Assembly: GCF_002078015.1 (NCBI RefSeq)
Contig: NZ_LWBP01000214.1
Coordinates: forward strand, 1 to 60,734
Direction: 5' to 3'
DNA from: Niastella populi
Lineage (GTDB): Bacteria; Bacteroidota; Bacteroidia; Chitinophagales; Chitinophagaceae
Length of the DNA stretch: 60,734 nucleotides
Positions 1,007 to 60,054 of this stretch are shown here, in pieces. Numbering within the stretch: position 1 is the first letter of the stretch; each line of letters opens with the position of its first letter. The notes under the pieces are model-generated. The model saw only the letters and a program-made list of their open reading frames with translations. It had not been told where the DNA came from and did not search any database. The translations under genes were made by a program, and so were the position numbers.

Positions 1007-1120
1007 GTTCTCAGTTCCGCACTTTTCGTTGTATTTGCTTGCGGGGTTCGGTCACTTCTCCCATGCCCGCCCCCAGCCAAACAACCCCCGCCAAAAAGCT
1101 GGTGAGAAAACTTATCTGAA

Positions 1121-1757: not shown

Positions 1758-1760
1758 TTT

Positions 1761-2765: not shown

Positions 2766-2835
2766 GAGATTAAGGATTTTTGGCGTAAGTTAAGTATTAT
2801 TTATCGCTGCCACAATACACGAATACGGAAGTTAT

Positions 2836-2843
2836 TACTTTTG
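2836..2843 (+). promoter_or_regulatory. -7 promoter element TACTTTTG
   Basis: TACTTTTG matches the Bacteroidota -7 consensus TAnnTTTG and lies 37 nt before the ATG at 2881. No clear TTTG box is visible 19-21 nt upstream. Confidence 0.45.
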
Positions 2844-2880
2844 CGGGAAGTTTATTCGATTGTGGATTAATTTATTATGC

Positions 2881-3219: not shown

Positions 3220-3365
3220 GCAAAGGGAGATTCGCGATTAATAGGGAACCCTGAAAAGCGGCAATTCTTGCCAATTGCAAATTGCCGATTGCCAATTGGT
3301 TAAAGCAGCAAACATCTCTATATCATTGTCTTTTACCTGGCTAATCATAAACAAATCAATTTCTA

Positions 3366-3854: not shown

Positions 3855-3899
3855 CGCTTTAACAGCATTACGGTTAAACTAACATTTGTTATTTTCACC

Positions 3900-3907
3900 T
3901 ACATTTG
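3900..3907 (+). promoter_or_regulatory. -7 promoter element TACATTTG of sdaA
   Basis: TACATTTG matches TAnnTTTG exactly and ends 16 nt before the proposed TTG start at 3924. The messenger would then have a leader of only about 10 nt. No matching -33 box is visible at the usual distance. Confidence 0.4.
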
Positions 3908-3923
3908 CCCAAAATGCAGCCCT

Positions 3924-5351: not shown

Positions 5352-5528
5352 ATACAGCTGTAAGCAAATACAGAATACAGCTGCAAGCTTCAAGCTATAA
5401 GCTGTAAGCGAATACAGATACAGCTACAAGCTGCAAGCGAATACAGCTGCACGCTACAGGCGAAGACTGCCTTAAGCTTAGCTTACAGCTTTTGTATTTG
5501 CTTATAGCTTACGGTTTAAAGCTTATAG
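5352..5528. repeat. Intergenic word repeat (AATACAGCTGCAAGCTT type) with complementary halves
   Basis: The left part repeats words such as AATACAGCTGCAAGC and AAGCTATAAGCTGTAAGC. The right part (about 5470-5526) carries the complement: CTTAGCTTACAGCTTTTGTA, TTGCTTATAGC. The gap lies between the convergent genes sdaA (+) and mqnE (-), so the folded block could end transcription from both sides. Confidence 0.65.
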
Positions 5529-6698: not shown

Positions 6699-6740
6699 TT
6701 GATAGGGATTTGCTTCCGTATGTAACAATAAAACGGGCAC

Positions 6741-6967
6741 AAAGTTACGGGAAAACAGCTACAAGCCCCAAGCTGATAGCTGCAAGCAAATACAGAATAC
6801 AGGGGAAAGCGGAAGGCCTAAAGCCTAAGGCAAATACAGAAGACAGCCGAAAGCTGATACAAAATACAGTCTAAGCAGGCATAGCGGAATGCCAATCGCA
6901 GCAGGTTGATGCGTAATCACGAGCAATGTATTTCATTATCACATTATCTAATTATCACATTATCAAA
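6741..6967. repeat. Intergenic word-repeat block
   Basis: The first half repeats ACAGCTACAAGC, AAATACAGAA and related words of the type seen at 5352-5528. The second part (about 6931-6967) consists of TTATCACATTATCTAATTATC words, complementary to the GTGATAATGTGATAATG run at 27850-27878. It lies downstream of nupC (minus strand) and upstream of mqnE (minus strand). Confidence 0.6.
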
Positions 6968-8263
6968 TTACATTAAAGCCCCTGCTATCGTTCCGCACAT
7001 CAAACATGCAATAGTACCGCCGATAAGCGCCTTAACGCCCAGTTCGGTAAGGTTGCGGCGCTGGTTGGGCGCCAGCTGGCTGATGCCGCCGATCTGAATG
7101 CCGATGGAAGCGAAATTGGCAAAACCACACAACGCATAGGTGGCTATCAGGATCGATTTGGGATCGGTTATTTGTCCGGATGATTTCATGCTGCCGAAAG
7201 AAATATAGGCAACAAATTCATTGAGGATGGTCTTCTCGCCCAGTAGCTGCCCTACCTGTACCATCTCCTGGCTTTTGACGCCAATAAGCCAGGCAACGGG
7301 GGAGAACACATAGCCGAGGATCATTTGCAGGGATAATGAATCGTAGCGGCCGTTGGTTACGCGGGCAATATCGTCATTGATACTGAACCAGTAACCAACC
7401 GATCCCAGGATCCAGTTGCACAAATACATTAAGGCGGTAAATACGATAAGCATAGCGCCTACGTTCACGGCCAGTTTAAGGCCGTCGGTTGTGCCCAGGG
7501 AAATAGCGTCGAGAAAGTTATCACCTATTTTTTCTTTAGGCACCTTCAGCTCCCTGATGAAGGTTTCGTTCTGGGGAAATAATATTTTAGAAACAACGAT
7601 GGCGGCGGGGGCGCTCATGATGCTCTGGCTCAGCATATGCAATGCGAAATACTTTTGCTGCACGATATCGTTACCGCCGAGGAAACCAACATAGGCAGCC
7701 AGAACGCTGCCGGCGGTATTGGCCATGCCACCCACCATGATGCAAAGCATTTCGCTGCGGTTCATTTTATCGAGGAAGGGCCTGATCATCAGCGGCGCTT
7801 CCGTTTGACCGAGAAAAATATTGGCAGCCGTAGAAACGCTTTCAGGACCGGAGATACCCAATTTCTTCAGCATCCAGGCGAACACATACACTATTTTTTG
7901 CAGAATGCCGAGGTAGTATAACATGGCCGAAAGGGCGGCAAAGAAAATGATATTGGGCAACACCTGCACGGCAAACACATATGCCCAGCTGCCCGTAGGA
8001 TCGGCCAGTTTACCAAAAATGAATTCTATACCCTTATGACCTATATTGATAAGCTCAACGAATTTATCGCTCACCCAGCCAAAAACGATCTTGATAAAGT
8101 TGACTTTCAAAACACCCAGCGCAAAACACAACTGGGCCACCACGCCAATGCCCACCAGTTTCCAGTTGATCGCCCGCCGGTTATTGCTCAGCAAAAAACA
8201 CACGAAGATGAGGAAGAACATACCTAATGCACCGCGCGAAATGTTTTCAAGTACCGGGGTCAT
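6968..8263 (-). CDS. nupC: Concentrative nucleoside transporter (NupC/CNT family)
   Basis: 431 residues, all membrane-spanning in character. It shows the family signatures VQVLPNIIFFAALSAMLYYLG, GISGPESVSTAANIFLGQTEAPL (the conserved G-Q-T-E-A-P-L loop) and VGGMANTAGSVLAAYVGFLGG in the middle. The last third carries GTTDGLKLAVNVGAMLIVF and the terminal pair of helices. CNT proteins import nucleosides with sodium or protons across the inner membrane. Length is typical. A 17-nt-arm dyad (8311-8354) lies about 50 nt upstream of the start and may control it. Confidence 0.92.
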   Translation of the reverse strand: MTPVLENISRGALGMFFLIFVCFLLSNNRRAINWKLVGIGVVAQLCFALGVLKVNFIKIVFGWVSDKFVELINIGHKGIEFIFGKLADPTGSWAYVFAVQVLPNIIFFAALSAMLYYLGILQKIVYVFAWMLKKLGISGPESVSTAANIFLGQTEAPLMIRPFLDKMNRSEMLCIMVGGMANTAGSVLAAYVGFLGGNDIVQQKYFALHMLSQSIMSAPAAIVVSKILFPQNETFIRELKVPKEKIGDNFLDAISLGTTDGLKLAVNVGAMLIVFTALMYLCNWILGSVGYWFSINDDIARVTNGRYDSLSLQMILGYVFSPVAWLIGVKSQEMVQVGQLLGEKTILNEFVAYISFGSMKSSGQITDPKSILIATYALCGFANFASIGIQIGGISQLAPNQRRNLTELGVKALIGGTIACLMCGTIAGALM

Positions 8264-8310
8264 AATGATGTTTTGGTGTAGTTGAAATTTTTAAGGTATA
8301 TAAATTTACA

Positions 8311-8354
8311 ATGGTTCGTGTGTATTCCGCTACTGCAGAATATACGCGAACCAT
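8311..8354. promoter_or_regulatory. Long dyad in the nupC leader
   Basis: Arm one (ATGGTTCGTGTGTATTC, 8311-8327) and arm two (GAATATACGCGAACCAT, 8338-8354) are complementary at 15 of 17 positions around a 10-nt loop. It lies between the terminator of the upstream lipoprotein gene and the nupC start, with no T-tract, so an operator or leader structure is more likely than a terminator. Confidence 0.45.
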
Positions 8355-8455
8355 GGCCAGCTGTTAGGGTATGAGTAGCAATATAACGGAATAATTTTAA
8401 TTCGCAATAATACAGCTTAATTATCAATGTAAATGGTGATCATAGGCATACAATG

Positions 8456-8485
8456 AAAAAGCGACCCTGTAACAGGATCGCTTTT
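8456..8485 (-). terminator. Terminator of the lipoprotein gene at 8519
   Basis: AAAAGCGA (8457-8464) pairs with TCGCTTTT (8478-8485) around CCTGTAACAGG-like inner pairs. The stem ends in T-tracts on both strands. It begins 34 nt after the stop of the minus-strand gene. Confidence 0.8.
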
Positions 8486-8518
8486 GAGTATCGTTGAATG
8501 CTTTGCTTAATTGCAGGG

Positions 8519-31862: not shown

Positions 31863-33299
31863 TTACTGTGCTGCCATCATCCCGGCCGACCATTGTATGC
31901 CGTAAGCGGCTTTACGATACTTCACCTGCAGTTCTACCACTTTCTGTTGCATTTCAAGGGTTTTATTTTCCCTGGCATTGATCAGAAAGAGGGAACTTTC
32001 ACCCTGCTGTAACTTCAACTCTTCATTACGCAAAAGGAAGTCATAGGCTTTATTCATTTCGCGGGCCGCCTGCAGCTGCCCCTGCAGCTGAATGGCCTCA
32101 TTGTAATATTTTCTTATTTTATTCTGCAGGTCCCATAATTTATTATCCAGTTCCAGGTTGTTATCCCTGATCTTCAACAATACATTCCTGTATTCGCCCC
32201 GGTTCTGGCGCCATAGCAACGGCACTTTTACATTGACACCCAGCTTATAATTATTTTCAAGATAATATGATGACATGCCCTTGAACTGGTAATAGTCTTT
32301 GCTAAGCAGATTGGCCTGGAGGGTAACAGCAGGCAGAAAGTTCTGTAATTTAAGTTTGCGTTCGGTTTCCAGTGCGCTGACTTTGTAACGGGTTATCTGC
32401 AGCGCCGGGTGCGCGGAAATAGTTTGTGCCAAAAGGGCGCTTGTATCGGGTAACATTATAGGGCCTGTGAACCGGAGGGTATCTGGTATATAGTCATCCG
32501 GAAGCAGGTAGGGTTCTTCGCCTGCCGTCCAGAGGTAAGCAGACAATTCCAGCTTTTTCCTGGTCAGCTCGAGCATGGCCTCATTCTGCAACAATCGCAT
32601 GTTTTGTAACTGGGCCCAGGCTTCAATTGTATCGGCCATGGCGCGGTCGCCGTTCATAAAGGCGATGTTTACAAGGCGCGCCCTTTTTGCTGCAACGTTC
32701 ACGTTGCCTGAATAGATCTGGTAGGTATACCATGCGCCGGTCCATTCCCAATAAGCGGTGTAAGCATTGAACAACAGGTCGTTGATCGTTGCAAGCCGTT
32801 CCTGTTCGCTTTGCCGCAGGTATATTTTTGCCTGTTGAAGCGTGGTGCGCTTCCTGTCGGTCAATAGCCCGTTCAACAGCGGTATTTCCATACCCAGGTA
32901 ACTGGCCACCCCTCTGGTACGCTCGGGACTTATGTACTGCCCGCTGCTTTTTTCGTACCCACCTTTAATACTAACGCCAATGCCGGTGGGAAGTTTGATC
33001 TCAGGGTTGGTGTACCGGTAATAGTTAGTTCCATCGAGCGTTTTTGCAGCAGAAGCCGCATCAATCACCGGGTCGAAAGCGCCCCGGGCGGTCAGCAGGT
33101 CTGCTTTCGCCTTTTCGGTAAGCAGATCAGCCTGTTTTGCCACCGGGTGATATTGCTTTACCTGTTGGGCAAACGCTTCAACCGTTAACAGGTATTTATG
33201 CTGCGCCCGGCTTTTCAAACAGGCTGCCGGTAATATTATGAGTGACAGGGTGGTGCATAAAAAGCGCCGCACGCCAATGCCGAATGTTGTGTTGATCAT
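31863..33299 (-). CDS. TolC-family outer-membrane efflux protein
   Basis: 478 residues with an N-terminal signal region. Long heptad-like helices dominate (LLTEKAKADLLTARGAFDPV, AALETERKLKLQNF-type segments, MNKAYDFLLRNEELKLQQGE), split by beta-strand-like parts (GVNVKVPLL, YLGMEIPLL). The two half-repeats and the length fit the OEP/TolC family, which forms trimeric outer-membrane channels. Its start overlaps the stop of the HlyD-like gene by 4 nt, so it is the last gene of a three-gene exporter operon. Confidence 0.88.
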   Translation of the reverse strand: MINTTFGIGVRRFLCTTLSLIILPAACLKSRAQHKYLLTVEAFAQQVKQYHPVAKQADLLTEKAKADLLTARGAFDPVIDAASAAKTLDGTNYYRYTNPEIKLPTGIGVSIKGGYEKSSGQYISPERTRGVASYLGMEIPLLNGLLTDRKRTTLQQAKIYLRQSEQERLATINDLLFNAYTAYWEWTGAWYTYQIYSGNVNVAAKRARLVNIAFMNGDRAMADTIEAWAQLQNMRLLQNEAMLELTRKKLELSAYLWTAGEEPYLLPDDYIPDTLRFTGPIMLPDTSALLAQTISAHPALQITRYKVSALETERKLKLQNFLPAVTLQANLLSKDYYQFKGMSSYYLENNYKLGVNVKVPLLWRQNRGEYRNVLLKIRDNNLELDNKLWDLQNKIRKYYNEAIQLQGQLQAAREMNKAYDFLLRNEELKLQQGESSLFLINARENKTLEMQQKVVELQVKYRKAAYGIQWSAGMMAAQ

Positions 33300-34645
33300 T
33301 TTTTTTCCTTTTGCCGGGTTTCCTGCAGTTGATAATATTCAGGGGGAAAGCCATTTATATTTCGCCATAGCTCGTAATAAACCGGCACATCTTTCAATAA
33401 CATGATGCCTTCAGCGCCGGTGCCTATGCGCAACTGCGCCGGCCATTTACTATCCGCCGCATCTTCAACTACCAGCACACGAAACCTGCCATTGGCGCTT
33501 ACGGAATTTTCAACAGCTATTACCCGACCGCCGAATGTACCGTAACTGCCGCCGGGCCAACCGCTGAACACGATGGCGGGGAAGCCGTCAAAAACGAATC
33601 TCACCTTTTGTCCCTGGCTGATCAGCGAGAGGTCCATCGGCTTTACAAAAAGTTCAATTGCATACTGGATCTTATCGGGAACGATCTCCACGATCATATC
33701 GCCTTCTTTCAGGAATTCGCCTATACCGGCTTTCCTGGCTTTAATAACCTGGCCGCTTTGGGGAGCCACGATATAATATAATTTGCTGCGGGCATCGTAG
33801 TTGGCCAGTTGGTTCTGCAGTTTCGACAGCTCGGCTTCCGAACCGGCGGCGTCGGACAGGGAGGAATACCGGTCGCCCCGCACTTTGGCAATTTTATCGG
33901 CATACTCCTGCAGGGAGGCCTGCTGCTCGATGCGCAGGTTGGTAAGCTCCTGGCGGCTTTGTTGCAATTTATTGTCGGCGCTGTTCAATTTTGCAAGGCC
34001 ATTCTGATAGTTTATTTTCCTTTTTTCCAGCTCTGTGAGGGATATAGCGCCGCTGTCGTACATAATGCGGGCTGCATCGATCTGCCGTTGATATGCCTGC
34101 AATTCATTGCTTACCGCTACGAGGTCGGCCTCCTCCGTGCTGATCTTCAATTGCTGTTGGGCAATCTTGTTCTCAATTGATCTCAGCTTCAGTTCGCGTG
34201 CCTGTTCAAGGGCCTTTGATTGCATTGAAGTGGCCGATGCTTTGTTCCTGTAGCCGTCAATGCTTTGTTGTTTTGCCGTTATCTGGTCCTTTGTCCGCTG
34301 CAATAGTTGCGGATCGAAATACTCTACTTTAACTTCACCCAATTGTAGAAGGGTGTCGCCGGCGTTAACAAAATCGCCTTCCTTCACATGCCATTTGGCA
34401 ATACTGCCGGCAATAACCGTATTCACCTGTTGCGGACGTTGCTCCTGGCGCAGCGTGGTTACGGTTCCTTTGGCCCTGATGTTCTGCGTCCATGGTAAAA
34501 AGAGTACAGCGATCAGTACCAACAGCATACCCCAAAGCCATTTACTGATATGGCTCCTTCGGTTATACAGGTATATCTTTGAAAAGCATCCGGGGCTGTT
34601 CGATGTCGCCGTTTTTTCAAAATCTGTGTATAGGTACCGGTCCAT
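33296..34645 (-). CDS. HlyD-family membrane-fusion (adaptor) protein
   Basis: 449 residues. One transmembrane helix near the N-terminus (WLWGMLLVLIAVLFLPW) anchors it in the inner membrane. The first lipoyl/barrel half is seen at GSIAKWHVKEGDFVNAGDTLLQLG. Two long coiled-coil helices span about residues 110-270. The second half is at YIVAPQSGQVIKARKAGIGEFLKEGD, and a beta domain closes the chain (GQKVRFVFDGFPAIVFSG). It connects the ABC pump to the TolC channel. It lies 39 nt downstream of the ABC gene and overlaps the TolC-like gene. Confidence 0.92.
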   Translation of the reverse strand: MDRYLYTDFEKTATSNSPGCFSKIYLYNRRSHISKWLWGMLLVLIAVLFLPWTQNIRAKGTVTTLRQEQRPQQVNTVIAGSIAKWHVKEGDFVNAGDTLLQLGEVKVEYFDPQLLQRTKDQITAKQQSIDGYRNKASATSMQSKALEQARELKLRSIENKIAQQQLKISTEEADLVAVSNELQAYQRQIDAARIMYDSGAISLTELEKRKINYQNGLAKLNSADNKLQQSRQELTNLRIEQQASLQEYADKIAKVRGDRYSSLSDAAGSEAELSKLQNQLANYDARSKLYYIVAPQSGQVIKARKAGIGEFLKEGDMIVEIVPDKIQYAIELFVKPMDLSLISQGQKVRFVFDGFPAIVFSGWPGGSYGTFGGRVIAVENSVSANGRFRVLVVEDAADSKWPAQLRIGTGAEGIMLLKDVPVYYELWRNINGFPPEYYQLQETRQKEKK

Positions 34646-34684
34646 ATATAGCTGATTTTATATTGTCGATCATGCATTTGTTAG

Positions 34685-36340
34685 TTAACTTAATTTGCCT
34701 AGCGTTACCACCCGGTTGCAGTAAGTTCCGAGTTCCTGATCCTTTGATGCGATCAGTATGGTGGCGGCAATCTCTTTGCTGATATACCTGATCACTGCGG
34801 TTTTATTGTCGGGTGAAAGATGTGCGAACGGTTCTTCCAGTAAAAGCATACGTTGATTGGCCGCAAGCGCTCTTATCAGCAGTATATTTTTACGAACATT
34901 CTCCGGCAGTTTATTCCCCACGGGTTGCAGTAGTGTATCATAACCTTTCGAAGAAGCTTTTACAAAGGCGGTAAGACCGGTTATCTGGCAGAGTTGGTTG
35001 ATCTCTTCCATACCAATGGCAGGATTGCCCATGGTAAGGTTATCCCATAGCGTGCCATGAAAAATATCCTGGCTGCCCAGCAGGATACCGGTATGTTTAC
35101 GAAGGCTGGCCACCTCGTAATTTCCGATGGGGACATTGTTCAGTAAAATATTGCCGGTGTAGTTCTTAAATGCGCCGGTAAGCAGGCGCAGCACGGTAGA
35201 CTTGCCTGTACCCGATTCGCCCCTGATCTGCACCATTTGACCAGGTTCAATTGCAAAGCTGATGTCGTTCAATACCGGCCTGTTATTGCCATAGGCAAAC
35301 GTCACGTTCTTAAATTCCACGGCCACGCCTTCCTTCAGGTCATCCAGTTGCAGGCTGCCGCTTTGTTCCGTTTCCGCATCGGCAATAACGCTCAGTTTTT
35401 CCACTGAAACAATTGCGTCGTAAACAACGTCGAGGTTAGTGATCAGTTTTTCGATGGATATAATGATGGCGATGATGACGATATCGGCGGCAATGAACTG
35501 GCCCACGTTGATCTGTTGATTTACCAGCAGGTATGCGCCGATTATAAGCATTGCGGTAGTGATAAGCACTTTAAACGAGATCAGGCTCCAGAACTGGGTT
35601 AACAGAACCCCGAAATAACTTGTGCGGTACCCGAGGTAATCACTCACCAACACATCGGTTCTGTTGAGGTGAAAGGAGGTACCTTTTGAATATTTGAATG
35701 TTTTGATCGATCGGGCGATCTCCTGTAACCAGGCGGCTACGGCGTATTTGTAAGTGCTGGCCTTATACGCGGCCTGCAGGCCCCGGCCTGAGGATGCCAG
35801 GATGATAGTAAGCACAATGGCGATCAACACCAGGCCGAATGCAATAAACACCGGATGATAAAAAGACAATAAGAGTAGCCCAAGCAATATCTGGATAACC
35901 GCAGCCGGCAGTTCCAGCATCAGTTTGTCGATGCCCTTCTGCAGCGTAATACTGTCGAAATAACGGTTAACCAGCTCAGGCAGATATTCATTGTCAAGAG
36001 GTTCGATATTCAGTTTGGGCAGTCGGTCGGCATATTCAAGCGAATAGCGAACAAAAAGTTTCTGCTTAACTTTTTCAATGATCTGCAGTTGCCTCACCTG
36101 TAACAGGCCGTTGATGAATACGCCAAAAACAACCATGCCGATCAATACGACAATAGATGTGGAAATGGTACCGGCCATAACAAAGCTGATTATCGACTGA
36201 ATGCCCAGTGGAAGGGAGAGCTGCACAAGTCCCGCCAAAAGGGCGAACAGGCAGGCTGTGGCAAAATCTTTCCGGTCGCGGAACAGAATGCTGTTGAGCT
36301 TAACCAGTGACGGTAACAGAGAAATGGATTGGTGTGCCAT
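34685..36340 (-). CDS. ABC exporter (peptidase-less) with non-canonical ATPase motifs
   Basis: 551 residues. Six membrane helices form the N-terminal half (LFALLAGLVQLSLPLGIQSIISF and others) and an ABC ATPase the C-terminal half. Walker A GESGTGKST is intact (about residues 378-386), and Walker B LLLEEPFAHLSPD is recognisable. The signature normally written LSGGQ reads LPENVRKN. The H-loop His is replaced by Lys in ILIASKDQELG. With HlyD- and TolC-like partners it forms a type-I-like exporter. No C39 peptidase domain and no cargo gene are visible. The relatives I remember from Bacteroidota share the odd signature, so it is probably a family trait. Confidence 0.87.
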   Translation of the reverse strand: MAHQSISLLPSLVKLNSILFRDRKDFATACLFALLAGLVQLSLPLGIQSIISFVMAGTISTSIVVLIGMVVFGVFINGLLQVRQLQIIEKVKQKLFVRYSLEYADRLPKLNIEPLDNEYLPELVNRYFDSITLQKGIDKLMLELPAAVIQILLGLLLLSFYHPVFIAFGLVLIAIVLTIILASSGRGLQAAYKASTYKYAVAAWLQEIARSIKTFKYSKGTSFHLNRTDVLVSDYLGYRTSYFGVLLTQFWSLISFKVLITTAMLIIGAYLLVNQQINVGQFIAADIVIIAIIISIEKLITNLDVVYDAIVSVEKLSVIADAETEQSGSLQLDDLKEGVAVEFKNVTFAYGNNRPVLNDISFAIEPGQMVQIRGESGTGKSTVLRLLTGAFKNYTGNILLNNVPIGNYEVASLRKHTGILLGSQDIFHGTLWDNLTMGNPAIGMEEINQLCQITGLTAFVKASSKGYDTLLQPVGNKLPENVRKNILLIRALAANQRMLLLEEPFAHLSPDNKTAVIRYISKEIAATILIASKDQELGTYCNRVVTLGKLS

Positions 36341-36522: not shown

Positions 36523-38067
36523 TCAGGCATGCAGTGAATGGGCAACTTCTACTGCCTTAATTCCAATGAGATGTAATTCAATATGCCTGTCTTTTGCTTT
36601 TGTCGTAAACTCGCTTATCGTTTCCAATATGTCGTAGTCTATAAAATTACAGTTGCTTCCATCGATCGTGAGGGCCGTATAAGGAGAAACTTCATCCAGC
36701 GTTTTTTTAAGTTTTACTTTATTTAAGAACGTAACGTTGCTGTTTAATTTTATCAGTTCAGTTTCTATTCCGTGTATCACCGTGCGGGTGATCCTGTATT
36801 CCGCTCTGAAATTATTTTGTATTATAAAATAAATGGAAAACAGGAGGCCTATACTCACTCCGATCAAAAGGTCGGTTGCCAGGATCACAATGATAGTCAA
36901 TACGAAGGGCAGGAATTGTTTCCAGCCCAGGCTAAACATGTTTTTGTAAAGTTTTGGTTTTGTTAAGTTATATCCCGTAACCAACAGGATGGCCGAAAGA
37001 GATGCGAACGGGATCAGGTTGAGGATGAATGGGATCAGCAATACAGCCAGAAGTAATAACACTCCATGTGTAATGGCAGCCGTTTTGGTACGCGCGCCGG
37101 CGTCTACATTGGCCGCACCCCGCACAACAACGGCTGTTAAGGGTATTGCACCCAGCAGGCCGCAGGTAATATTGCCGATGCCCTGTGCAATCAGTTCCCG
37201 GTTCACCGGTGTTATGCGGTTATGTTTGTCGAGCTTGTCCACCGCTTCTATACACAACAGCGTTTCCAGGGAAGCCAGTAATCCGATAACCACGCCGTCT
37301 TTCCAGATCTGCGTGTTGGAGAAGAGCTGATCAAACGCCGGAAATGAGATGTTTGAAAATAAGCCGGCAGGGATATTGACAAGTTGGTCTGGTTTAAGCG
37401 TTAACACGCTGTTTGTGTTAATAAATATAACTGAGAACACGATGCCCGTGGCTACTACAAATAATGGCGCGGGAGTGTTAGCCAGCTTTTTAGCAAAAGG
37501 CCGTTGCAGCAGCACGAGGAGGGCCAGCGAAAAAAGCGTAATGATTAAAGAGCCTTTACTTATATGCTGAGTTAAGGCCTGATATTTTTTTGGTGAGAAC
37601 AGATCATGCAGGCCGCTCGTCCAGAAATCAGGTTGATCATACCCGATTGACAAAGGGAGCTGTTTTGCAATTAACATTATGCCAATGGCTGCCAGCATTC
37701 CTTTAATTACTGCGGAAGGAAAATAATTGGCGATGCTTCCCAGTTTTAGCAAACCAAGTAGCAGTTGAAACGCTCCTGCAATAATTACCGCCAACAGGAA
37801 AACATGGTAGTTACCTAGTGTAATGATTGAGCCGGCTACTACGGTTGTTAACCCGGCTGCCGGTCCTGATACGGCCAAAGGCGAGGCGCTGATGGATGCT
37901 ACCATGATGCCGCCGATGATGCCCGATAAAAGGCCTGCATATAAAGGCGCCCCCGATGCCAGGGCGATGCCGAGGCATAACGGTAATGCAACCAGGAATA
38001 CAGCCAGCCCTGCTGCAAGATCATGCCGCAGCCACATGATGCGATAATATTTAAATGTTCGTTTCAA
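36523..38067 (-). CDS. SulP-family inorganic anion transporter
   Basis: 514 residues. About 11-12 membrane helices begin with WLRHDLAAGLAVFLVALPLCLGIALASGAP, the SulP signature, and continue with FVVATGIVFSVIF-type segments and LLASLETLLCIEAVDKLDKHNR. The end (about 420-510) is a STAS domain: NVTFLNKVKLKKTLDEV, YTALTIDGSNCNFIDYDILE. SulP proteins carry sulfate, bicarbonate or similar anions across the inner membrane; the substrate cannot be read here. It is 165 nt downstream of the methyltransferase/GcvH-like cassette, behind a terminator, and has no carbonic anhydrase neighbour. Confidence 0.9.
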   Translation of the reverse strand: MKRTFKYYRIMWLRHDLAAGLAVFLVALPLCLGIALASGAPLYAGLLSGIIGGIMVASISASPLAVSGPAAGLTTVVAGSIITLGNYHVFLLAVIIAGAFQLLLGLLKLGSIANYFPSAVIKGMLAAIGIMLIAKQLPLSIGYDQPDFWTSGLHDLFSPKKYQALTQHISKGSLIITLFSLALLVLLQRPFAKKLANTPAPLFVVATGIVFSVIFINTNSVLTLKPDQLVNIPAGLFSNISFPAFDQLFSNTQIWKDGVVIGLLASLETLLCIEAVDKLDKHNRITPVNRELIAQGIGNITCGLLGAIPLTAVVVRGAANVDAGARTKTAAITHGVLLLLAVLLIPFILNLIPFASLSAILLVTGYNLTKPKLYKNMFSLGWKQFLPFVLTIIVILATDLLIGVSIGLLFSIYFIIQNNFRAEYRITRTVIHGIETELIKLNSNVTFLNKVKLKKTLDEVSPYTALTIDGSNCNFIDYDILETISEFTTKAKDRHIELHLIGIKAVEVAHSLHA

Positions 38068-38119: not shown

Positions 38120-38192
38120 CAAAAAAGTTTGGAGGGCTGTATCCATTCGATATTGGGCCAGAGGAGGCTTAACCAGCCAGCCCTTCCAAACT
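38120..38192 (-). terminator. Large terminator after the methyltransferase cassette
   Basis: AGTTTGGAGGGCTG (38126-38139) and CAGCCCTTCCAAACT (38178-38192) pair with a single bulge. A 38-nt loop separates them and is itself able to pair in part. On the minus strand it is followed by TTTTTT. Confidence 0.75.
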
Positions 38193-38232: not shown

Positions 38233-38841
38233 TCACATTTTTATCCAGCATTTCAACAGGTCATTGAAATGCATTTCAGCCATCTGGTAAGATGGTGGAA
38301 TCTCATCGCCCCAACTGCAATAAGTGACAACTCTTGTTCCCCGCGGCATTTTTTCAAGTTGGTTATACAGGTAAATACTGTAATAGTTATAGAGTTCATT
38401 TGAATACACTATTTCATTATCTATCTTTTCGGTACCAACGAGATTTTCAAAAAATGCGTTATAGAAATAAAAATGATCATAGTCTTTTAAATCGAGTTGG
38501 GTAAAGTTCCTATGGATAAACTGAACATTGGGAAGTCCCAATCTTTTTCGGGCGATTTCCGCATGTTCTATCAGGCTTTTTCGTTGCTCAACACCGGTAA
38601 ACAAAATGGATGGTTTGTAAAAAGCACCGGCCAGACAAAATTTGCCGGCCCCGCTGCCTATGTCGAGGATTTTCACTTTGTCATTTACCCCCAGGTAAGA
38701 AACGGCTTTTTGAGTAATGTGTAATGGCGACCAATGCATCCGCGCCAGTGATCTTATTGATTCAGGGTATAACTGGTGTAAGGTAGCATCGGCACTAAAC
38801 CAGTTTTCCAGATCAGGCATTGATTTTGCTGAGGGCTTCAT
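38233..38841 (-). CDS. SAM-dependent methyltransferase, cassette copy 2
   Basis: 202 residues from the Met at 38841, chosen because it gives exactly the length and opening of the paralogue at 39296-39904 (xxxWFxxDxTLxxLxPxSIxSLAxxHWxPLHI). The class I SAM fold shows motif I as KILDIGSGAGKFCLAGAFYK, then GVEQRKSLIEHAE, NVQFIHRNFTQLDL and YDHFYFYNAFFENL. The DIGSG...GVEQ...F(Y/F)N layout recalls DOT1-like protein methyltransferases. The substrate is unknown. It is the third gene of the cassette, 34 nt after the GcvH-like stop, and is followed by a strong terminator. Confidence 0.8.
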   Translation of the reverse strand: MKPSAKSMPDLENWFSADATLHQLYPESIRSLARMHWSPLHITQKAVSYLGVNDKVKILDIGSGAGKFCLAGAFYKPSILFTGVEQRKSLIEHAEIARKRLGLPNVQFIHRNFTQLDLKDYDHFYFYNAFFENLVGTEKIDNEIVYSNELYNYYSIYLYNQLEKMPRGTRVVTYCSWGDEIPPSYQMAEMHFNDLLKCWIKM

Positions 38842-38875
38842 GGTGTGTGATGGATGTTTTATTGTTTCAGTTCTT

Positions 38876-39274
38876 CTATCGATGATTGTTTCGCATTTTA
38901 TACTCATCTAACGTCAGCAGGCCTGATTTATCATTTAAGCTGCCTGGTACCACCAGGGCGATCCAGCCGTTGGTTTCAGGTTGTTGAAGTAAGATGTTTT
39001 TTTCTTCTGTCAGCAACAGGTCGTTTATACTGATGATCTTACCGTTCACTGGCATATGAACCAACACATGGTAATCGTCGAATTGAATACTGCCGATAAT
39101 TTCGCCCTGCTTTATCTGCGCTGATATTTCCTCAAATTCTATCTTGTGAATTTCTTTAAACCCCGAAAGCTTAAACCGGCATACACCAATGTAGGCTACC
39201 GAACCCTGGAAGTCTATCCACTCATGATCGTTGGTATAGTATAAGTTTCTCTTTATTAAATTTTGGGTTTCCAT
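38876..39274 (-). CDS. GcvH-like protein lacking the lipoyl lysine
   Basis: 132 residues. The sequence follows glycine-cleavage H protein from start to end: YYTNDHEWIDFQGSVAYIGV, a lipoyl-domain core, MPVNGKIISINDLLLTEE and NGWIALVVPGS. The hairpin that normally reads ESVKAxSDxYxPVSG and carries the lipoylated Lys reads GSIQFDDYHVLVHMPVNG. No Lys lies in it, so it cannot be lipoylated in the usual way. No other glycine-cleavage gene is near. It is encoded between two paralogous methyltransferases (21 nt and 34 nt gaps), so it may act as a scaffold, substrate or regulator for them. Confidence 0.8.
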   Translation of the reverse strand: METQNLIKRNLYYTNDHEWIDFQGSVAYIGVCRFKLSGFKEIHKIEFEEISAQIKQGEIIGSIQFDDYHVLVHMPVNGKIISINDLLLTEEKNILLQQPETNGWIALVVPGSLNDKSGLLTLDEYKMRNNHR

Positions 39275-39295
39275 AGCTGCTGAGTCATGTGAGTG

Positions 39296-39904
39296 TTATA
39301 ATTTTATCCAGAACTGTAACAGATCGCCTGCCTGCGAATCAACTAAATGATATTCCGGAGGAATTTTAATGTTCAGGCAATGGAAAGTAGCAGCCCTGGT
39401 TCCTGAGGGCATTGCTGAAAGTTTTTTATACAATTGCTTATGATAATAATTATATAGGAAAGTGGAGTGCTTTACCTTGTCATCTATTTTATCACGGTCC
39501 ATCAGGTTTTCATAAAAGGAATTGAAGAAATAAAAATGGTCATATTGGCCGAAGTCCAGTTCGGTTATATTGCCATGTATAAAATGTACATTTTTCAGTC
39601 CCAGTTTATTTCTTGCATTTTCTCCATGGGTTATAAGATGTTCCCGTTGTTCAACTCCGAAAAAAGAAGCGTAGGGTTTATAATAAGCACCGGCGAGGCA
39701 AAATTTGCCAACACCGCTGCCAATATCCAGGACTTTAACGCCGGGATGTGTAACCAGAAAGGGAGTTACCATTTGAATAATATGCAACGGTGTCCAATGT
39801 CTGTTAGCCAAAGATTGAATAGAGTCAGGAAATAATCTGTTTAATGTTGAATCTGTACGAAACCACTTATGTATCGGGTCCGAGGCGGTATTTGCTGATT
39901 GCAT
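39296..39904 (-). CDS. SAM-dependent methyltransferase, cassette copy 1
   Basis: 202 residues, the same length as the paralogue at 38233. N-terminal IHKWFRTDSTLNRLFPDSIQ and HWTPLHIIQM are followed by motif I, VKVLDIGSGVGKFCLAGAYY, then GVEQREHLITHGENARNKLG, NVHFIHGNITELDFG and YDHFYFFNSFYENL. The end, DLLQFWIKL, matches DLLKCWIKM of copy 2. It is the first gene of the cassette. A -7 box (39910-39917) sits immediately before the ATG and a perfect dyad (39948-39967) behind it. The upstream neighbour is a Crp/Fnr regulator in the same direction. Confidence 0.82.
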   Translation of the reverse strand: MQSANTASDPIHKWFRTDSTLNRLFPDSIQSLANRHWTPLHIIQMVTPFLVTHPGVKVLDIGSGVGKFCLAGAYYKPYASFFGVEQREHLITHGENARNKLGLKNVHFIHGNITELDFGQYDHFYFFNSFYENLMDRDKIDDKVKHSTFLYNYYHKQLYKKLSAMPSGTRAATFHCLNIKIPPEYHLVDSQAGDLLQFWIKL

Positions 39905-39909
39905 CGGTG

Positions 39910-39917
39910 CAAAGTTA
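39910..39917 (-). promoter_or_regulatory. -7 promoter element TAACTTTG of the methyltransferase cassette
   Basis: On the minus strand this reads TAACTTTG, an exact TAnnTTTG match ending 6 nt before the ATG. Transcription would then begin at or next to the start codon, giving a nearly leaderless messenger. Confidence 0.5.
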
Positions 39918-39947
39918 CCAGGTTGGTTAATCGGTAACTGTTAACCT

Positions 39948-39967
39948 TGTCACTTAAAAAAGTGACA
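39948..39967. promoter_or_regulatory. Perfect dyad TGTCACTT-aaaa-AAGTGACA, candidate Crp/Fnr site
   Basis: Eight-nt arms around four A residues. The centre lies about 52 nt upstream of the predicted start of transcription of the methyltransferase cassette, a position used by activators. A Crp/Fnr regulator gene is the immediate upstream neighbour. Arm sequence and spacing resemble, but do not equal, the classical Crp (TGTGA-N6-TCACA) or Fnr (TTGAT-N4-ATCAA) sites. Confidence 0.6.
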
Positions 39968-40058
39968 TTTGTCAATTTTAGTGAGAACGATCTTTCCGGC
40001 TGGCCGGTTATATAATGGGGGAGAGCGCGGGTGAAAGACCATCTGTCGGGCTGAACGG

Positions 40059-40766
40059 TTATTTATAATTGGCTATTTTAATCAGCTGTTTAACGTCATG
40101 AACGATGATCTTCCGGCCCTTTGTTTCAACTATGCCTGCTTCTTTGAATTCGGTAAGTATGCGCACAGCCCGCTCACGAACCGTTCCAACCAGGCTGGCC
40201 AGGTCGTCACGGCTGATATTTATTTCGACCGGCATCCCCGGTTGAAAATTCTGTTTATACTTTTCCCGAAGCACAATTAATTGTAAGGCCAGTCTTTCCC
40301 TTACCGATTTTTGAGCAAAAACCGACAGGCTGTTAGCCAATACGGCAAATTCATGGCTTAGGGTCTTAAGTAACCGTTTACTTAAGACGGATGATTGTTG
40401 TATTGTAAGTAGAAAATCTTCTTTTGGTATAAAGGCAATTTTGCTTTTTTCCAATGCTGAAGCCGAATCGGGATACCGGTCTTCTGAAAGAATTGCATGA
40501 TAACCTATCAATTCTCCCTTGTTGGCAACATAAATGATATGTTCTTTTCCGTCTTTGTCTACTTTATATTTCTTTACCTTTCCATCAATGATATAAAAAA
40601 TACCGGAAGGGTAGGCTGCTTCCCTGAAAATGATCTCTCCTTTTGAATATTCCTGTTCAGTTTTATTTGCTGTCAGTAATTCAAAATCTTCGGCAGGCAG
40701 ATCCTTTAAAATAGATTCGCTTTTAAAATCCCACTTATCAATAGGAAATATGCCATGTAAACTCAT
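40059..40766 (-). CDS. Crp/Fnr-family transcriptional regulator
   Basis: 235 residues from the Met at 40766; the reading frame extends 40 codons further up but would run through the -7 box at 40808. An effector domain of cNMP-binding type spans residues 20-140 (YSKGEIIFREAAYPSGIFYIIDGKVKKYKVDKDGKEHIIYV). No N-terminal Cys cluster for an Fe-S sensor is visible. The DNA-binding part follows a long helix (SVRERLALQLIVLREKY) and reads ISRDDLASLVGTVRERAVRILTEFKEAGIVETKG. It probably controls the methyltransferase cassette directly downstream. Confidence 0.9.
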   Translation of the reverse strand: MSLHGIFPIDKWDFKSESILKDLPAEDFELLTANKTEQEYSKGEIIFREAAYPSGIFYIIDGKVKKYKVDKDGKEHIIYVANKGELIGYHAILSEDRYPDSASALEKSKIAFIPKEDFLLTIQQSSVLSKRLLKTLSHEFAVLANSLSVFAQKSVRERLALQLIVLREKYKQNFQPGMPVEINISRDDLASLVGTVRERAVRILTEFKEAGIVETKGRKIIVHDVKQLIKIANYK

Positions 40767-52782: not shown

Positions 52783-53128
52783 CATATACCTATAAAAGAT
52801 ATTGCCAGTCGTTAAATGTTGCATGGCTGATACTTTGAGTCAAACAAAAAGTACGAACGTCGGTTTTCACTGAGGGCACAATGTACGTCATTTTTAGTGC
52901 AGTAAAAGCGCTGCACCGTTGCACAAACATGGATGCAAAGTAGTATAAATGCCGGCGGCTACGCTTGCGCAGCGAACCGAACGCTTTAGTGTACCTGAGT
53001 AACCCGGCAATGCCCCAACGCTAAATTGGCCTTATATTTGAGATTCATATACCCTAATTTAATTAGAACCAGGTTCTCCGGCTCCGTTCTGGCTTTGGTT
53101 GAGGCAAATACTTTAAAAGTACTTGCAT
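52783..53128. other. Divergent gap with small dyads
   Basis: It contains GTGCAG...CTGCAC (52897-52916), a -7-like TATATTTG on the plus strand (53033-53040) and the palindrome AGAACC-a-GGTTCT (53065-53077), which lies 51 nt before the GH74 gene. No gene was recognised. Confidence 0.4.
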
Positions 53129-55390
53129 ATGACTAGAATACACTCAATCAAACGCTTTCTGCTTCCCGTCTTTTTAACCATTACAGCAAATACATGGGCT
53201 CAGTCTTATAATTGGCAAAACGTAAAGATCGGGGGCGGAGGTTTCGTCACCGGCCTCGTTTTTAATCCCTCTCAAAGCAATTTATTATATGCGCGTACAG
53301 ATGTAGGTGGCGCTTACCGCTGGGATGCAGCTACCGGTAAATGGATACCCCTGACAGATTTCATGGGACAGGATGAGGAAACCTATTCAGGAGTATTAAG
53401 TATAGCTACCGATCCCGGTGACGTGAACAGGGTATATATGGCCGCCGGATTGTATACAGCTTCCTGGGCCGGTAATGGTGCAGTGTTTTCATCAACTGAT
53501 AAAGGGAGTACATGGACGAGGCACGATCTCACCATTAAACTGGGTGGTAATGAAGACGGCCGGAATAGCGGCGAGCGGCTGGTAGTCGATCCAAATTCAG
53601 GTAACATGCTGTTCCTTGGGTCCAGTAAAGATGGTTTATGGAGTAGTATCAACTATGGCAGCACCTGGAGCAAGGTAAATAGTTTTCCTGTATCCACATT
53701 CAGCGGGGCAGGGGTATCGTTTGTGCTTTTTGACAAAAGCACAGGGACAGCCGGTAATGCAACACAAACCATTTATGTAGGTATAATGCAAACAGGTACC
53801 AACCTGTATAAAAGTACAAATGGAGGTGTAACCTGGACTGCTGTGCCTGGTCAGCCCACTACGCTTATGCCTTTGCAGGGTGTACTGGCATCAGATGGTA
53901 ATATGTACATCACGTATGCTGACAATCCGGGGCCAAATAATATAACAACGGGTACCGTATACAAACTTAATACACCAACTAATTTATGGACGCAACTGCC
54001 TCTTCCGGCAGGCCAGGGAGGTTTTTCAGGAGTAAGCGTCGATGCCTCCAATGCCAACACTATATTGGTCAGTACCTTAGATCGCTGGTGGCCGCGAGAT
54101 GAAATATACCGTAGTACCGACGGCGGTAATACCTGGACGGCCCTGCTCACCACAGCTACCTGGGATCAGTCTTCGGCCCCTTATACCTCCGGTTATACAG
54201 CGCACTGGATCGGAGATGTTGAAATTGACCCTTTTGATAATACAAAGGCATGGTTTGTTACCGGTTATGGCGTATATCGTACAAACAATATTACCGCTGT
54301 ACCGGTTACATGGACGTTTCAGAACAATGGGCTGGAACAACTGGTAGCCCTGTCACTTGCAAGTCCCGCATCGGGCGTACCGTTGTTAAGCGCCGTTGGC
54401 GACCATGACGGTTTCAGACATATAGATCTGGCTATCTCTCCGGTGGCCGGAAAGTATAATCCATCTTATGGCACCAACGGTAGTATTGATGTAGGGCAAA
54501 GTAATTCAGATTATGTAGCTAGAACTCACTACAACAGCGGTGTTAATTTCGGCGCTTATTCAACAAACCAGGGTCTCAGCTGGACAAGTTTCGGCAGCTA
54601 TCCGGCAGGTACGAACGGGCCGGGAAGTATCGCTTTATCCGCCAATGCAGCAACAATGCTGTGGTCGCCCAATGGAGCAGCGGCAGTTTATTACTCAACC
54701 AACAATGGCACTACGTGGACGGCTGCTACCGGCATCAGCAATGGCGAGGCTATTACAGGTGATAAGGTAAACAGTAATAAATTTTACGGGTATAATGCTA
54801 CAACGGGCGTCTTCCATGTAAGCACCAATGCAGGCATATCATTCTCCAATGGCGCAACCGGCCTGCCAACATTGCAAAGCTGGGAGTTGTGGATGGCACA
54901 GGCAAGCGCTGTTTTTGGTGTTGAAGGAGATGTTTGGATTACCAGCGGATATAACGGTTTGTATCACTCGGTGAACAGCGGCGCTTCATTTACAAAAATA
55001 AGTGGTGTGGATGCAGCCTATAAAGTGGCATTTGGCAAAGCAGCAACTGGCGCTACCTATCCCGCCATTTATATACAGGGTAGAATTGCAGGTACGTACG
55101 GCTTTTATCGCTCCATCGATGGTGGAAGTACTTGGGCCCGCATCAATGATGCCAGTCATAACTATTTAGGTGTTCGTTCCTTTACAGCTGATCCTAAAAC
55201 ATTTGGCCGTGTTTATATAGGCACCAGCGGCCGCGGTATCATCTACGGTGATGATCCCGTTGCATTACCTGTGTTATTTTCTTCTGTTAGTGTTACAACG
55301 AGAACCGCAATCAATACCACATATGCTGATATAAAATGGAATACTTCCTATGAAAACAATGTCGCTTGGTTTGCTGTAAAAAAAGCATAG
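53129..55390 (+). CDS. GH74-type glycoside hydrolase (xyloglucanase-like), split by a frameshift
   Basis: 753 residues from the ATG at 53129. A signal peptide (FLLPVFLTITANTWAQ) is followed by two seven-bladed propellers with repeated SxDxGxTW (BNR-type) motifs: SSTDKGSTWTR, SINYGSTWSKV, STDGGNTWTAL and others. The GH74 catalytic acids are in place: Asp in ARTDVGGAYRW and Asp in WIGDVEIDPFD. Such enzymes cut xyloglucan or related beta-glucans outside the cell. The frame stops at TAG just after an A7 run; the T9SS tail continues in the -1 frame (55384-55833). No SusC/D genes are adjacent. Confidence 0.85.
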   Translation: MTRIHSIKRFLLPVFLTITANTWAQSYNWQNVKIGGGGFVTGLVFNPSQSNLLYARTDVGGAYRWDAATGKWIPLTDFMGQDEETYSGVLSIATDPGDVNRVYMAAGLYTASWAGNGAVFSSTDKGSTWTRHDLTIKLGGNEDGRNSGERLVVDPNSGNMLFLGSSKDGLWSSINYGSTWSKVNSFPVSTFSGAGVSFVLFDKSTGTAGNATQTIYVGIMQTGTNLYKSTNGGVTWTAVPGQPTTLMPLQGVLASDGNMYITYADNPGPNNITTGTVYKLNTPTNLWTQLPLPAGQGGFSGVSVDASNANTILVSTLDRWWPRDEIYRSTDGGNTWTALLTTATWDQSSAPYTSGYTAHWIGDVEIDPFDNTKAWFVTGYGVYRTNNITAVPVTWTFQNNGLEQLVALSLASPASGVPLLSAVGDHDGFRHIDLAISPVAGKYNPSYGTNGSIDVGQSNSDYVARTHYNSGVNFGAYSTNQGLSWTSFGSYPAGTNGPGSIALSANAATMLWSPNGAAAVYYSTNNGTTWTAATGISNGEAITGDKVNSNKFYGYNATTGVFHVSTNAGISFSNGATGLPTLQSWELWMAQASAVFGVEGDVWITSGYNGLYHSVNSGASFTKISGVDAAYKVAFGKAATGATYPAIYIQGRIAGTYGFYRSIDGGSTWARINDASHNYLGVRSFTADPKTFGRVYIGTSGRGIIYGDDPVALPVLFSSVSVTTRTAINTTYADIKWNTSYENNVAWFAVKKA

Positions 55391-55833
55391 AGGGGGGTGA
55401 ATGGAAGGAATTAGGCCGGGTTAACAGTAACCTGCTTCATTCGTATATGTACAGCGATGATATTACTACATTAAACGGGTCGGTATTTTACCGGATCAAA
55501 GAAGTGGCTTATGATAATACATTTAAATATAGTTCTGCTGTTTCATTGCGCCGTACCGCAGTAAGCTATACCAAAGTGAGTATAAGCCCTAATCCGCCTG
55601 CAGGCAATGTAATAAAAATAACTATTAGCAGCCCTGCGACCCAATCTATAGTCATCCGATTACTGGATGTAACCGGGCGAATTATCCATTCAAGTTCCCT
55701 TATTGGCATTTCAAATGGAAATAATGTTATTGAATTGCCTCCCATCCCGTCTGTTAAAGGAAGTATAGGTTTTATTGAAGTGTTGAATGCAGCACAAAAC
55801 AAACGAATAGAGGTGATCAAACTTGTTTTTTAA
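55384..55833 (+). pseudogene. C-terminal T9SS sorting part of the GH74-type protein, -1 frame
   Basis: In the -1 frame the text continues from AVKK into SIEGGEWKELGRVNSNLLHS, then a fibronectin-like segment, VSISPNPPAGNVIKITISSP and the sorting tail ending RIEVIKLVF. A -1 shift on A-AAA-AAA-G at 55378-55385 reads straight into it. Either a base is missing (mutation or sequencing) or the full-length protein is made by slippage. Confidence 0.75.
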
Positions 55834-57869: not shown

Positions 57870-60054
57870 AGGGACAGTTCCAGTTTTATTAACGACGTCG
57901 TTTCCGATCGGCCAAAAGATTAGGTGATCATTGAACAAACCGTTGAAAATGCCCGCGCCAGCCATGCACTACTGCGTTTGCCAGCTATTATAACCAGCAG
58001 CAGCAAACCAGTTATACCTGGTCGCAAATCGACAGCGTATATGCTTCTAAAAATCTAACGCTGAATATTTGTGATTCGTCAGCCCAATTACTTACGCTTT
58101 GCGGTAAAACCGAACCGGTATTTGCACCCGCAGTTTTAAACCAGCATTCGAATTGTGATGACAGTACTTTGTTTGCGCATTCAACCGGCACGGTGCTGTA
58201 CGACGCTTACCGCGATTCATTAATAAGCAGTTTCAACGACCGGTACCTGGCCAAATGTTTGAACGCCCGCTACAATGAAACGTTCACTGTATACCAGCCC
58301 GTCAACGAATATCACCACACACTTTATTATTACGATCAGGCCGATAATTTGATAAAAACGGTACCGCCGGCCGGCATCGATATAAGCAAGTTTGCTTATG
58401 CTCGTGCTTGGTCCGATTCGGTAATTGTCGCCAGGCGCAACAAACAAATGCTAACGCCGAACCATACGTTACCAACGCAGTACCGGTACAATACCTTAAA
58501 CCAGGTAATTGCACAGCAATCACCCGATGGCGGATTGTCGGAATTCTGGTACGACCGGTTAGGCAGGTTGGCTATCAGTCGTAATGCCAGGAAAAAAGGA
58601 GCCAGTGCAACAGAGGAAGGACGTTTATACAGTTATACAAAGTATGATTCACTGGGCCGTATTACGGAGGTAGGGCAGGTAAAAAACACCAGCGGTAACG
58701 GCGCCATGACGGACGCCATCAGCCGCAACCAGCCGGTGTTGGACAGTTGGATGGCAACATTATATAATCGCAGGGGCCAGATCACCAATACGGTTTATGA
58801 TCTGCCTTATCCGGGTTTTATTGGTATTGGCGATCCCCGGCTGGTTATTGAGCAAAAGAACCTGCGCAACCGGGTAAGTTATACCACGCTCACCGATATG
58901 GGTACCAGCAATGCCCATAACCAGGGCACGTTTTATACCTACGACATATTGGGTAATGTAGGCTGGCTGTTGCAGGACTACGGCAGTGACAGTTACACCG
59001 CCATGGCCAATGTAATGAATAAGAACGGCAACCGCTGGAAAAAGACCGGTTATAAATATGACCTCATCAGCGGTAAGGTGAATATGGTCATGTACCAGTA
59101 TGGATGGGGTGATGGATTTTTTCACCGGTACAGTTACGATGCCGAGAACCGTTTAACGCTGGTAGAAACCAGTAAAGACAGCCTGGTATGGGAAAAAGAA
59201 GCCCGCTACGAATAATACCGGCATGGACTATTAGCACGCGTAACCCTCGGAGAGCAACATAGCTTGTCCCGACTTCAGTCGGGATACAGGGAATTGACTA
59301 TGCCTATACACTGCAAGGCTGGTTAAAAGGCATCAATAGCACAGGCGGCACGGATCCATTCGACATGGGCGGGGATGGAAGGTACAGCAGCCTCAACCGC
59401 TTTACCGCCAAAGACGCTATTGGGCTTTCACTCAACTATTTTGGCAATGACTATACGGCCTTAAACGGTACACCATTCCCTGGTTATAGCGGCTACCTAT
59501 CAACCAGTTTCCGGCGATTGTACAATGGGAACATGAGCAGCAGCAGTGTTTATCAACGCAAGTTCGATGGTGAGCCGGGCGGGCCGTTGATCTTTTATAA
59601 TTACAAATATAACCAGTTAAACCGGTTAACGGGGCAGGATGCGTACAATGGATATAACAGCACAACAAACAGTTGGGCCGAGCTAACGGTGATGGGGGAG
59701 AACCTGAAAGAACGGATCTCTTATGATGCCAATGGAAATATTCAAAAGCACCTGCGTAAGAGCATCACCGGTACGGCGGCGCATATGGATAGCCTTCGGT
59801 ATTACTATTATGGAGGCACCATTAAATTAAAACGGATCACAGATAGCGTACCAACGAATGGTTATACGCACGCTGATGGTTTTATAATAGATATCGATGG
59901 CCAGCCCGATAACAATTACGTATACGATGCTATTGGCAACCTGATAAAAGACAGTACCGAAAAGATCACAGCCATAAAATGGAATGTGTATGGCAAAATA
60001 ACGGAGATAACCCGAATACCCACTGCGCAGGTACCGGTTGCGTTTACTGGATAA
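57870..60054 (+). pseudogene. RHS-repeat surface protein gene, multiply broken
   Basis: Three readable parts. About 57870-58168 carries a stop codon near 57921 and an apparent one-base loss near 58020 (QQQQTSYT / SQIDSVYASKN). 58169-59215 is the main frame with RHS-like YD repeats (YRYNTLNQVIAQQSPDGG, YDRLGRLAISRN, YDSLGRITEVGQ, YDAENRLTLVE). 59365-60054 continues with YNQLNRLTGQDAYNG, YDANGNIQKH and YDAIGNLIKD. Between the last two parts, codon 59213 is TAA where TAT would give the expected EYYRHG, and a 26-nt hairpin is inserted at 59261-59286. The RHS core and any toxin tip are absent; sequence ends abruptly after 60054. Confidence 0.8.
59261..59286 (+). mobile_element. 26-nt hairpin insertion inside the RHS gene
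   Basis: The reading frame ...GEQH (to 59260) continues at 59287 as QGIDYAYTLQGWLKGINS if these 26 nt are removed. The inserted text is AG, CTTGTCCCGA, CTTCAG and TCGGGATA, a hairpin like that at 21150-21172. It is a clean small insertion of a repeat element. Confidence 0.65.

Follow-up and report, generated by a model that had tools for sequence, protein, structure and literature searches.

The 60,734-nucleotide stretch of contig NZ_LWBP01000214.1 of Niastella populi (positions 1 to 60,734), referred to in its entirety as the window, carries on its minus strand a gene for a Crp/Fnr-family regulator, two methyltransferase (MT) genes, termed MT1 and MT2, that flank a gene for a GcvH-like protein (GcvHL), and a gene for a SulP-family anion transporter (Table 1). 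A previous sequence-only reading of this DNA had reported the order Crp/Fnr, MT1, GcvHL, and MT2 at positions 38233-40766, with gaps of only 21 and 34 nt around GcvHL, and both the gene order and the tight spacing are confirmed here. If MT2 were to start at an alternative upstream ATG at 38907, its coding region would overlap that of GcvHL. The same reading took the two methyltransferases around the GcvH-like protein to be the unit. Our comparisons revise this view: the core is a dedicated Crp/Fnr regulator with an MT, often accompanied by SulP, and GcvHL is an accessory.

Table 1. Genes and control elements of the cassette in the window.
Feature	Position	Strand	Details
Crp/Fnr-family regulator	40059..40766	minus	235 aa, no cysteine; Pfam cNMP_binding 71.1 bits, HTH_Crp_2 55.1 bits
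Upstream operator TTGAC-AAAT-GTCAC	39962..39975	minus	Centre 51 bp before the -7 box
Second, weaker site GTGAC-AAGG-TTAAC	39940..39953	minus	From sequence; 22 bp downstream of the first operator, centre to centre
-7 promoter box TAACTTTG	39910..39917	minus	5 nt ahead of the MT1 start codon; pattern match
MT1, class I S-adenosylmethionine (SAM) methyltransferase	39296..39904	minus	202 aa; Pfam
GcvHL, H-protein fold with D67 in place of the lipoyl lysine	38876..39274	minus	132 aa; Pfam GCV_H
MT2, paralogous class I SAM methyltransferase	38233..38841	minus	202 aa; identity to MT1
Terminator-like long-loop hairpin and T-run in the MT2-SulP spacer	38121..38192 (hairpin 38126-38192)	minus	Stem shared with loci L046 and L008
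SulP-family anion transporter	36523..38067	minus	514 aa, start TTG; Pfam Sulfate_transp

The evidence for this arrangement comes from a sample of 244 genomes of the family to which the window belongs, in which MT was called at E 1e-30, the Crp regulator at E<=1e-72, and GcvHL at a score cut of 97 bits. MT is present in 60 of these genomes and GcvHL in 20, the latter count depending on the chosen cut. All 20 genomes with GcvHL also carry MT (Fisher 4e-14 against 60/244 overall), and by coordinates the two genes are adjacent in 19 of them; the exception is G006, where they lie ~2.4 kb apart on opposite strands. The sequence-only reading had proposed conservation of the neighborhood as a test of its cassette, and with this adjacency the cassette is not refuted. 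Co-occurrence together with the conserved gene order rules out that these genes are chance neighbors, and the conclusion that the cassette is not a coincidence is supported.

An initial scan of named genomes for GcvHL had returned 11 loci. Ten of these reach 42% identity or more, and in the stretches covered nine of the 10 show the same Crp/Fnr gene and nine show MT (L011 ends inside GcvHL, and L008 shows no Crp). Nine other family genomes (G047, G050, G051, G066, G084, G103, G196, G207, and G239) each hold two lower-scoring GcvH-type matches, and one of them, G050, has a Crp match and no MT.

The regulator also occurs together with MT. A Crp match occurs in 45 of the 244 genomes, including all 20 with GcvHL, and 42 of the 45 also have MT, compared with 18 of the 199 genomes lacking the match (Fisher 3e-29). 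In G076, one of the three genomes with a Crp match and no MT, the match starts at a contig end. Because the regulator is confined to 45 of 244 genomes and is accompanied by MT in 42 of them, its role is dedicated and not global.

Gene neighborhoods were compared in a locus set comprising stretches of ~20 kb around GcvHL loci, 40 MT loci without GcvHL, and 11 MT loci from other families. MT lies within 110 bp in 23 of the 25 GcvHL loci of this set. Counts over MT loci use a subset of 75, which is not a random sample and is enriched for GcvHL by design, 24 of the 75 having been fetched for holding it. Outside these counts are L005 and L007 (on the same contigs as L044 and L045), L003 and L011 (short contigs), L012 (which shows Crp, GcvHL, and MT), L013 (26% identity, not GcvHL), L063 (a true GcvH), and L051, whose MT is hidden under a longer overlapping open reading frame (ORF); the MT loci of G049, G092, and G206 are not in the fetched set.

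Most of the 75 loci carry a single MT, and 40 of the 60 MT genomes are without GcvHL. Mapped onto the MT tree, the presence of GcvHL requires 17 changes, at least 11 of which are forced by well-supported branches, and it is because GcvHL comes and goes in this manner that we regard it as an accessory. Given that most loci have one MT, that two-thirds of the MT genomes do without GcvHL, and that SulP stands beside MT either way, the methyltransferase hardly needs GcvHL as an obligate substrate or scaffold.

Beyond the family, a search of 295 genomes of the class found MT in 11 that belong to other families, and in a phylum sample of 247 genomes it matched only the window's genome and G354, which is one of those 11. 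Two of the other-family loci (L104 and L105) show Crp-MT-SulP, L112 holds Crp, two GcvH-like genes, and MT, and L114 holds Crp, MT, the recurrent small protein described below, and the hydrogenase-4-like complex; the remaining seven have MT without this Crp or SulP. The broader GcvHL profile scores true GcvH proteins up to ~92 bits, and the absence of GcvHL outside the family is not to be read from it. Among 66 loci, the genes that recur anywhere in the fetched stretches encode a small protein with no Pfam match (15), DUF983 (14), DUF1275 (5), and a PhnA/YjdM-like protein (4), with families assigned from a Pfam scan of one member each.

The regulator matches both Pfam models of the Crp/Fnr family above their cut-offs. 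FNR-subgroup proteins sense oxygen through an iron-sulfur cluster held by cluster-binding cysteines; since the translation of this gene is devoid of cysteine, it is not an iron-sulfur FNR. In 45 of the 75 MT loci the gene is no more than 400 bp away from MT or GcvHL, and there it is most often divergent (39 loci), less commonly upstream and codirectional as in the window (3), or divergent with over-long ORF starts (3). Its position in front of the cassette, seen in the sequence-only reading, is accompanied by a recurrent operator: 35 of the 45 Crp-flanked loci have an upstream TGA-N6-TCA dyad with the form AAATTGAT-N4-ATCACTTT, as opposed to a mean of 3.1 and a maximum of 7 in 100 shuffles. 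In 22 of the 35, the operator centre is 50-52 bp before a TAnnTTTG box, and the other 13 have a different spacing or no box. A GTGAT half-site at the offset of the second site is visible in several of the compared loci.

These comparisons also redefine an element noted previously. The dyad TGTCACTTTTTTAAGTGACA is indeed present ahead of MT1, but on comparison it consists of the right half of the first operator and the left half of the second site, whereas the -7 box reported with it stands as described. When the box geometry is combined with the usual promoter structure of Bacteroidota, the first operator is predicted to lie ~62 bp before the transcription start. This placement is activator-like, in that it has the geometry expected for an upstream-binding activator, with the start site and the activation itself predicted from the DNA.

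The only zero-mismatch occurrence of the extended operator pattern in the 8.6-Mb genome is the operator in the window, and at one mismatch there are 44 rows compared with 28 in the reversed control, so that weaker genomic sites are indistinguishable from noise. The combined operator-plus-box pattern yields 34 hits in 15 MT-bearing genomes (reversed control 4), nine of which are the cassette itself, and 14 hits (control 5) in 15 genomes with no detected Crp or MT. It precedes universal stress protein genes in G000, G074, G085, and G163 and a nitroreductase gene in G141. Loci in which the pattern stands before genes of these two types are L145, L161, L164, L143, L146, and L171-L177. A shared low-oxygen regulon was considered and is not upheld: similar promoters occur in genomes where neither this Crp nor MT was detected, and such promoters therefore need not belong to the regulator of the cassette.

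MT1 and MT2 are paralogs, as had been proposed, with 53% identity over 200 columns. Both exceed the cut-off of the Pfam model Methyltransf_31, and the Pfam scan gave only methyltransferase models and no further domain. The SAM motif D[IV]G[SC]GxGKFC is present in 82 of 86 MT sequences and N-[SAP]-F-[YF] in 73 of 86. The structure model of MT2 has a predicted local distance difference test (pLDDT) score of 85. Together, the Pfam match, the model, its fold neighbors, and the motif identify a Rossmann-fold class I SAM methyltransferase. In the MT tree, MT1 falls in a clade of 10 rows and three genus labels (support 99/98) and MT2 in a separate clade of 11 rows (support 100/97).

The particular family of methyltransferase is less sharply defined. 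Fold neighbors include PrmC, TrmN, aKMT, and Dot1L, with no single family standing out by structure comparison, and sequence matches to solved chains are concentrated on the SAM-binding part. The DOT1 Pfam model scores 14.4 bits with MT1, under the cut-off of 23, and is not listed for MT2. For both proteins the best NCBIfam match is TrmB at ~33 to 35 bits, far under the cut-off of 112.65.

GcvHL was originally described as a degenerate lipoyl-domain protein, and this description holds. It scores 54.9 bits against Pfam GCV_H (cut-off 22.2) and falls short of the two NCBIfam GcvH models, with 65.3 bits where the cut-off is 117 and 60.9 where it is 115.85. Its model (pLDDT 88) has the H-protein fold according to Foldseek, with a template modeling score of ~0.8 to H-proteins. 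Across 25 homologs, the position of the lipoylated lysine is occupied by D in 20, E in three, R in one, and K in one, and the following residue is Y in 20. Position 32 is Cys in 16 of the 25 and S, G, A, or H in the others. The genome that includes the window encodes a true GcvH elsewhere (145.5 bits), and each of the 20 genomes with GcvHL has at least one further GcvH-type match, which we read as true GcvH.

GcvHL is under purifying selection. Nonsynonymous divergence (dN) is far below synonymous divergence (dS) in the three pairs, out of five, for which both are finite (for example, 0.077 versus 0.591 for L003-L046), and the HEW and FKLxG motifs are kept across genera. In several loci, the GcvHL and MT reading frames overlap by some bases. 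The GcvHL of L008 is a short open frame without the N-terminal part. At L060 (8809-10932), GcvHL is flanked by two Crp/Fnr genes of this regulator family.

The transporter gene had been left outside the cassette by the sequence-only reading, yet by conservation SulP belongs to the unit. In 33 of the 75 loci no more than 1.5 kb separates it from MT, with both on the same strand in all 33, and it is found near MT both in loci without GcvHL (18/40) and in GcvHL loci of the family set (13/24). The SulP in the window matches Sulfate_transp at 195.7 bits and STAS at 18.0 bits, below the cut-off of 22.6. Two distantly related types share this slot: of 34 genes, four show at least 60% identity with the window's SulP and 30 show less than 40%. 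One protein of the other, 550-aa type was scanned and scored 506.6 bits with the model for DauA (cut-off 614), whereas the sulP model gave 385.6 (cut-off 380.45). SulP seems to start at TTG in the window and at a V-coding start in L003, L008, and L009; we place the start upstream of the first ATG because conservation extends to the residues that precede it.

In L044, L047, and L114, a membrane complex that includes hydrogenase-4/NuoD-like subunits takes the place of SulP (families scanned on L044). In L044, positions 1-8494 include a NuoD-like subunit that runs off the end of the fetched sequence and has no CxxC pair in the part read.

After MT2, where a strong terminator had been noted, a long-loop hairpin with a T-run is present, and the same stem occurs at the same position in L046 and L008 with one compensatory T-A to C-G change. 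The whole 168-nt MT2-SulP spacer folds no better than shuffled sequences (z -0.70, 40 of 200 shuffles as good). A simple terminator scan with a loop limit of 8 does not list the hairpin, and Rfam assigns it to no family. The hairpin was also considered as a dispersed repeat and rejected: the exact pattern has one copy in its own genome and none in 116 others, excluding the genomes of L046 (G209) and L008. In the lineage of the window, transcription of SulP may read through the hairpin or may begin at a promoter of its own.

Beside SulP, genes for TolC-like and HlyD-like proteins (by eye) and an ABC transporter (Pfam) stand in a row at 31863-36340. Farther away, a long secreted-looking gene (BNR-like by eye) at 53123-55833 is apparently split by a frame change near 55366-55390, and an RHS/YD-repeat-like coding sequence (by eye) is spread over separate ORFs at 58169-60054.

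How might these components work together? There is good support for the module, for its dedicated regulator, and for its promoter, and we infer the methyl acceptor, the partnership of GcvHL with MT, and the role of the transporter. With confidence that falls a little short of even, we favor a signal-switched operon for a methyltransferase and, often, anion transport, in which GcvHL is an optional, lipoyl-free partner. The dedicated Crp/Fnr-type regulator would bind ahead of the predicted transcription start, at the operator ~62 bp away and at a weaker one ~40 bp away, and would thereby turn on an operon that encodes a single class I SAM methyltransferase or a pair of them, often together with a SulP anion transporter. 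The probable methyl acceptor of MT is a nitrogen in a protein or other macromolecule linked to anion transport or energy state. In one-third of the bearers GcvHL is produced immediately before MT, with overlapping frames at several loci, and it is most likely a lipoyl-free docking or regulatory partner whose predicted contact is the hairpin tip, where Asp-Tyr replaces the lipoyl lysine. A bolder form of this proposal, which we consider unlikely, is that the lysine-less H-protein is an adaptor or on/off subunit of MT under a private Crp/Fnr signal, and that the methylated target controls SulP or the NADH-dehydrogenase-like complex.

The pairing of MT with an anion transporter, drawn from two distantly related SulP types, one of which scores against the DauA and sulP models, could also mean that the target of MT is a small anionic or thiol metabolite, with SulP moving the substrate or the product. 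The module would then handle or detoxify this metabolite, and GcvHL would buffer or present an intermediate. We judge this possible, if somewhat unlikely, because replacement of SulP by a hydrogenase-4/NADH-dehydrogenase-like complex in three loci is a poor fit to a single metabolite transporter, and GcvHL lacks the carrier lysine. It is rather improbable that MT is an RNA methyltransferase that tunes translation under the Crp signal, with the transporter co-regulated and mechanistically separate: TrmN, Trm11, Trm14, and TrmR are close folds and TrmB is the leading NCBIfam match, but that match is far under its cut-off, no Pfam domain besides the methyltransferase models is found, and the association with a transporter is recurrent.

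Two further explanations concern GcvHL itself. The frequent Cys32 might allow the protein to remain a carrier through another residue, with MT acting on the carried group; this seems very unlikely given that 9 of the 25 homologs have a different residue there and that position 32 is outside the lipoyl hairpin. A decaying copy of true GcvH in a neutral arrangement might account for the truncated frame of L008 and for the repeated changes in GcvHL presence on the MT tree. This last idea is barely credible, as it is already contradicted by the low dN relative to dS and by the co-occurrence results (at the cut used, GcvHL is always found with MT), and the two motifs conserved across genera also speak against it; decay is rejected on these grounds. 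The favored reading of a signal-switched operon with GcvHL as an optional partner can be set against several known systems.

GcvHL shares with the H-protein of glycine cleavage its fold, its length, and the GCV_H domain, but it lacks the lipoyl lysine, scores under the NCBIfam cut-offs, and has no gcvT or gcvP beside it. Another known case is the GcvH-L of SirTM operons, a lipoylated relative of the H-protein that serves a modification operon unconnected with glycine cleavage, where a sirtuin, a macrodomain protein, and a lipoate ligase are encoded beside it. We take PDB 5a35, a Foldseek match of GcvHL, to be this protein. Both cases place an H-protein relative in an operon outside glycine cleavage. 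They differ in that GcvHL has lost the lysine and its neighbors are Crp/Fnr, MT, and SulP; no sirtuin, macrodomain, or ligase gene of the SirTM type stands beside GcvHL in the window. A report on the SirTM/macrodomain operons (PMC4518038) concerns ADP-ribosylating sirtuins.

The methyltransferases are distinguished from DOT1L, aKMT, PrmC, and TrmN by sequence matches that centre on the SAM-binding part and, for MT1, by the sub-threshold DOT1 score. We know of no methyltransferase or Crp/Fnr partner for DauA, to which the transporters of the related loci invite comparison. DauA is an Escherichia coli SulP transporter that is termed a signal transducer in the title of one report (PMC5703999). 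The cassette likewise has a SulP transporter, and the 550-aa type of related loci gives the DauA match of 506.6 bits noted above, whereas the SulP in the window is of the other type and its STAS match is below the cut-off.

The component families are known, and searches of open-licence literature aimed at the cassette and at its parts gave no description of their union. The cassette offers a compact, testable system for the role of a non-lipoylated H-protein and for the control of bacterial anion transport by methylation; if the adaptor proposal is true, it would represent methylation-based control of membrane transport. Compared with the systems above, the union is unusual in its regulator found almost only with MT, its two distantly related types of anion transporter in one slot, and its carrier protein minus the carrier residue, and the retention of this gene set in many species of one family points to an uncharacterized signal-controlled system.

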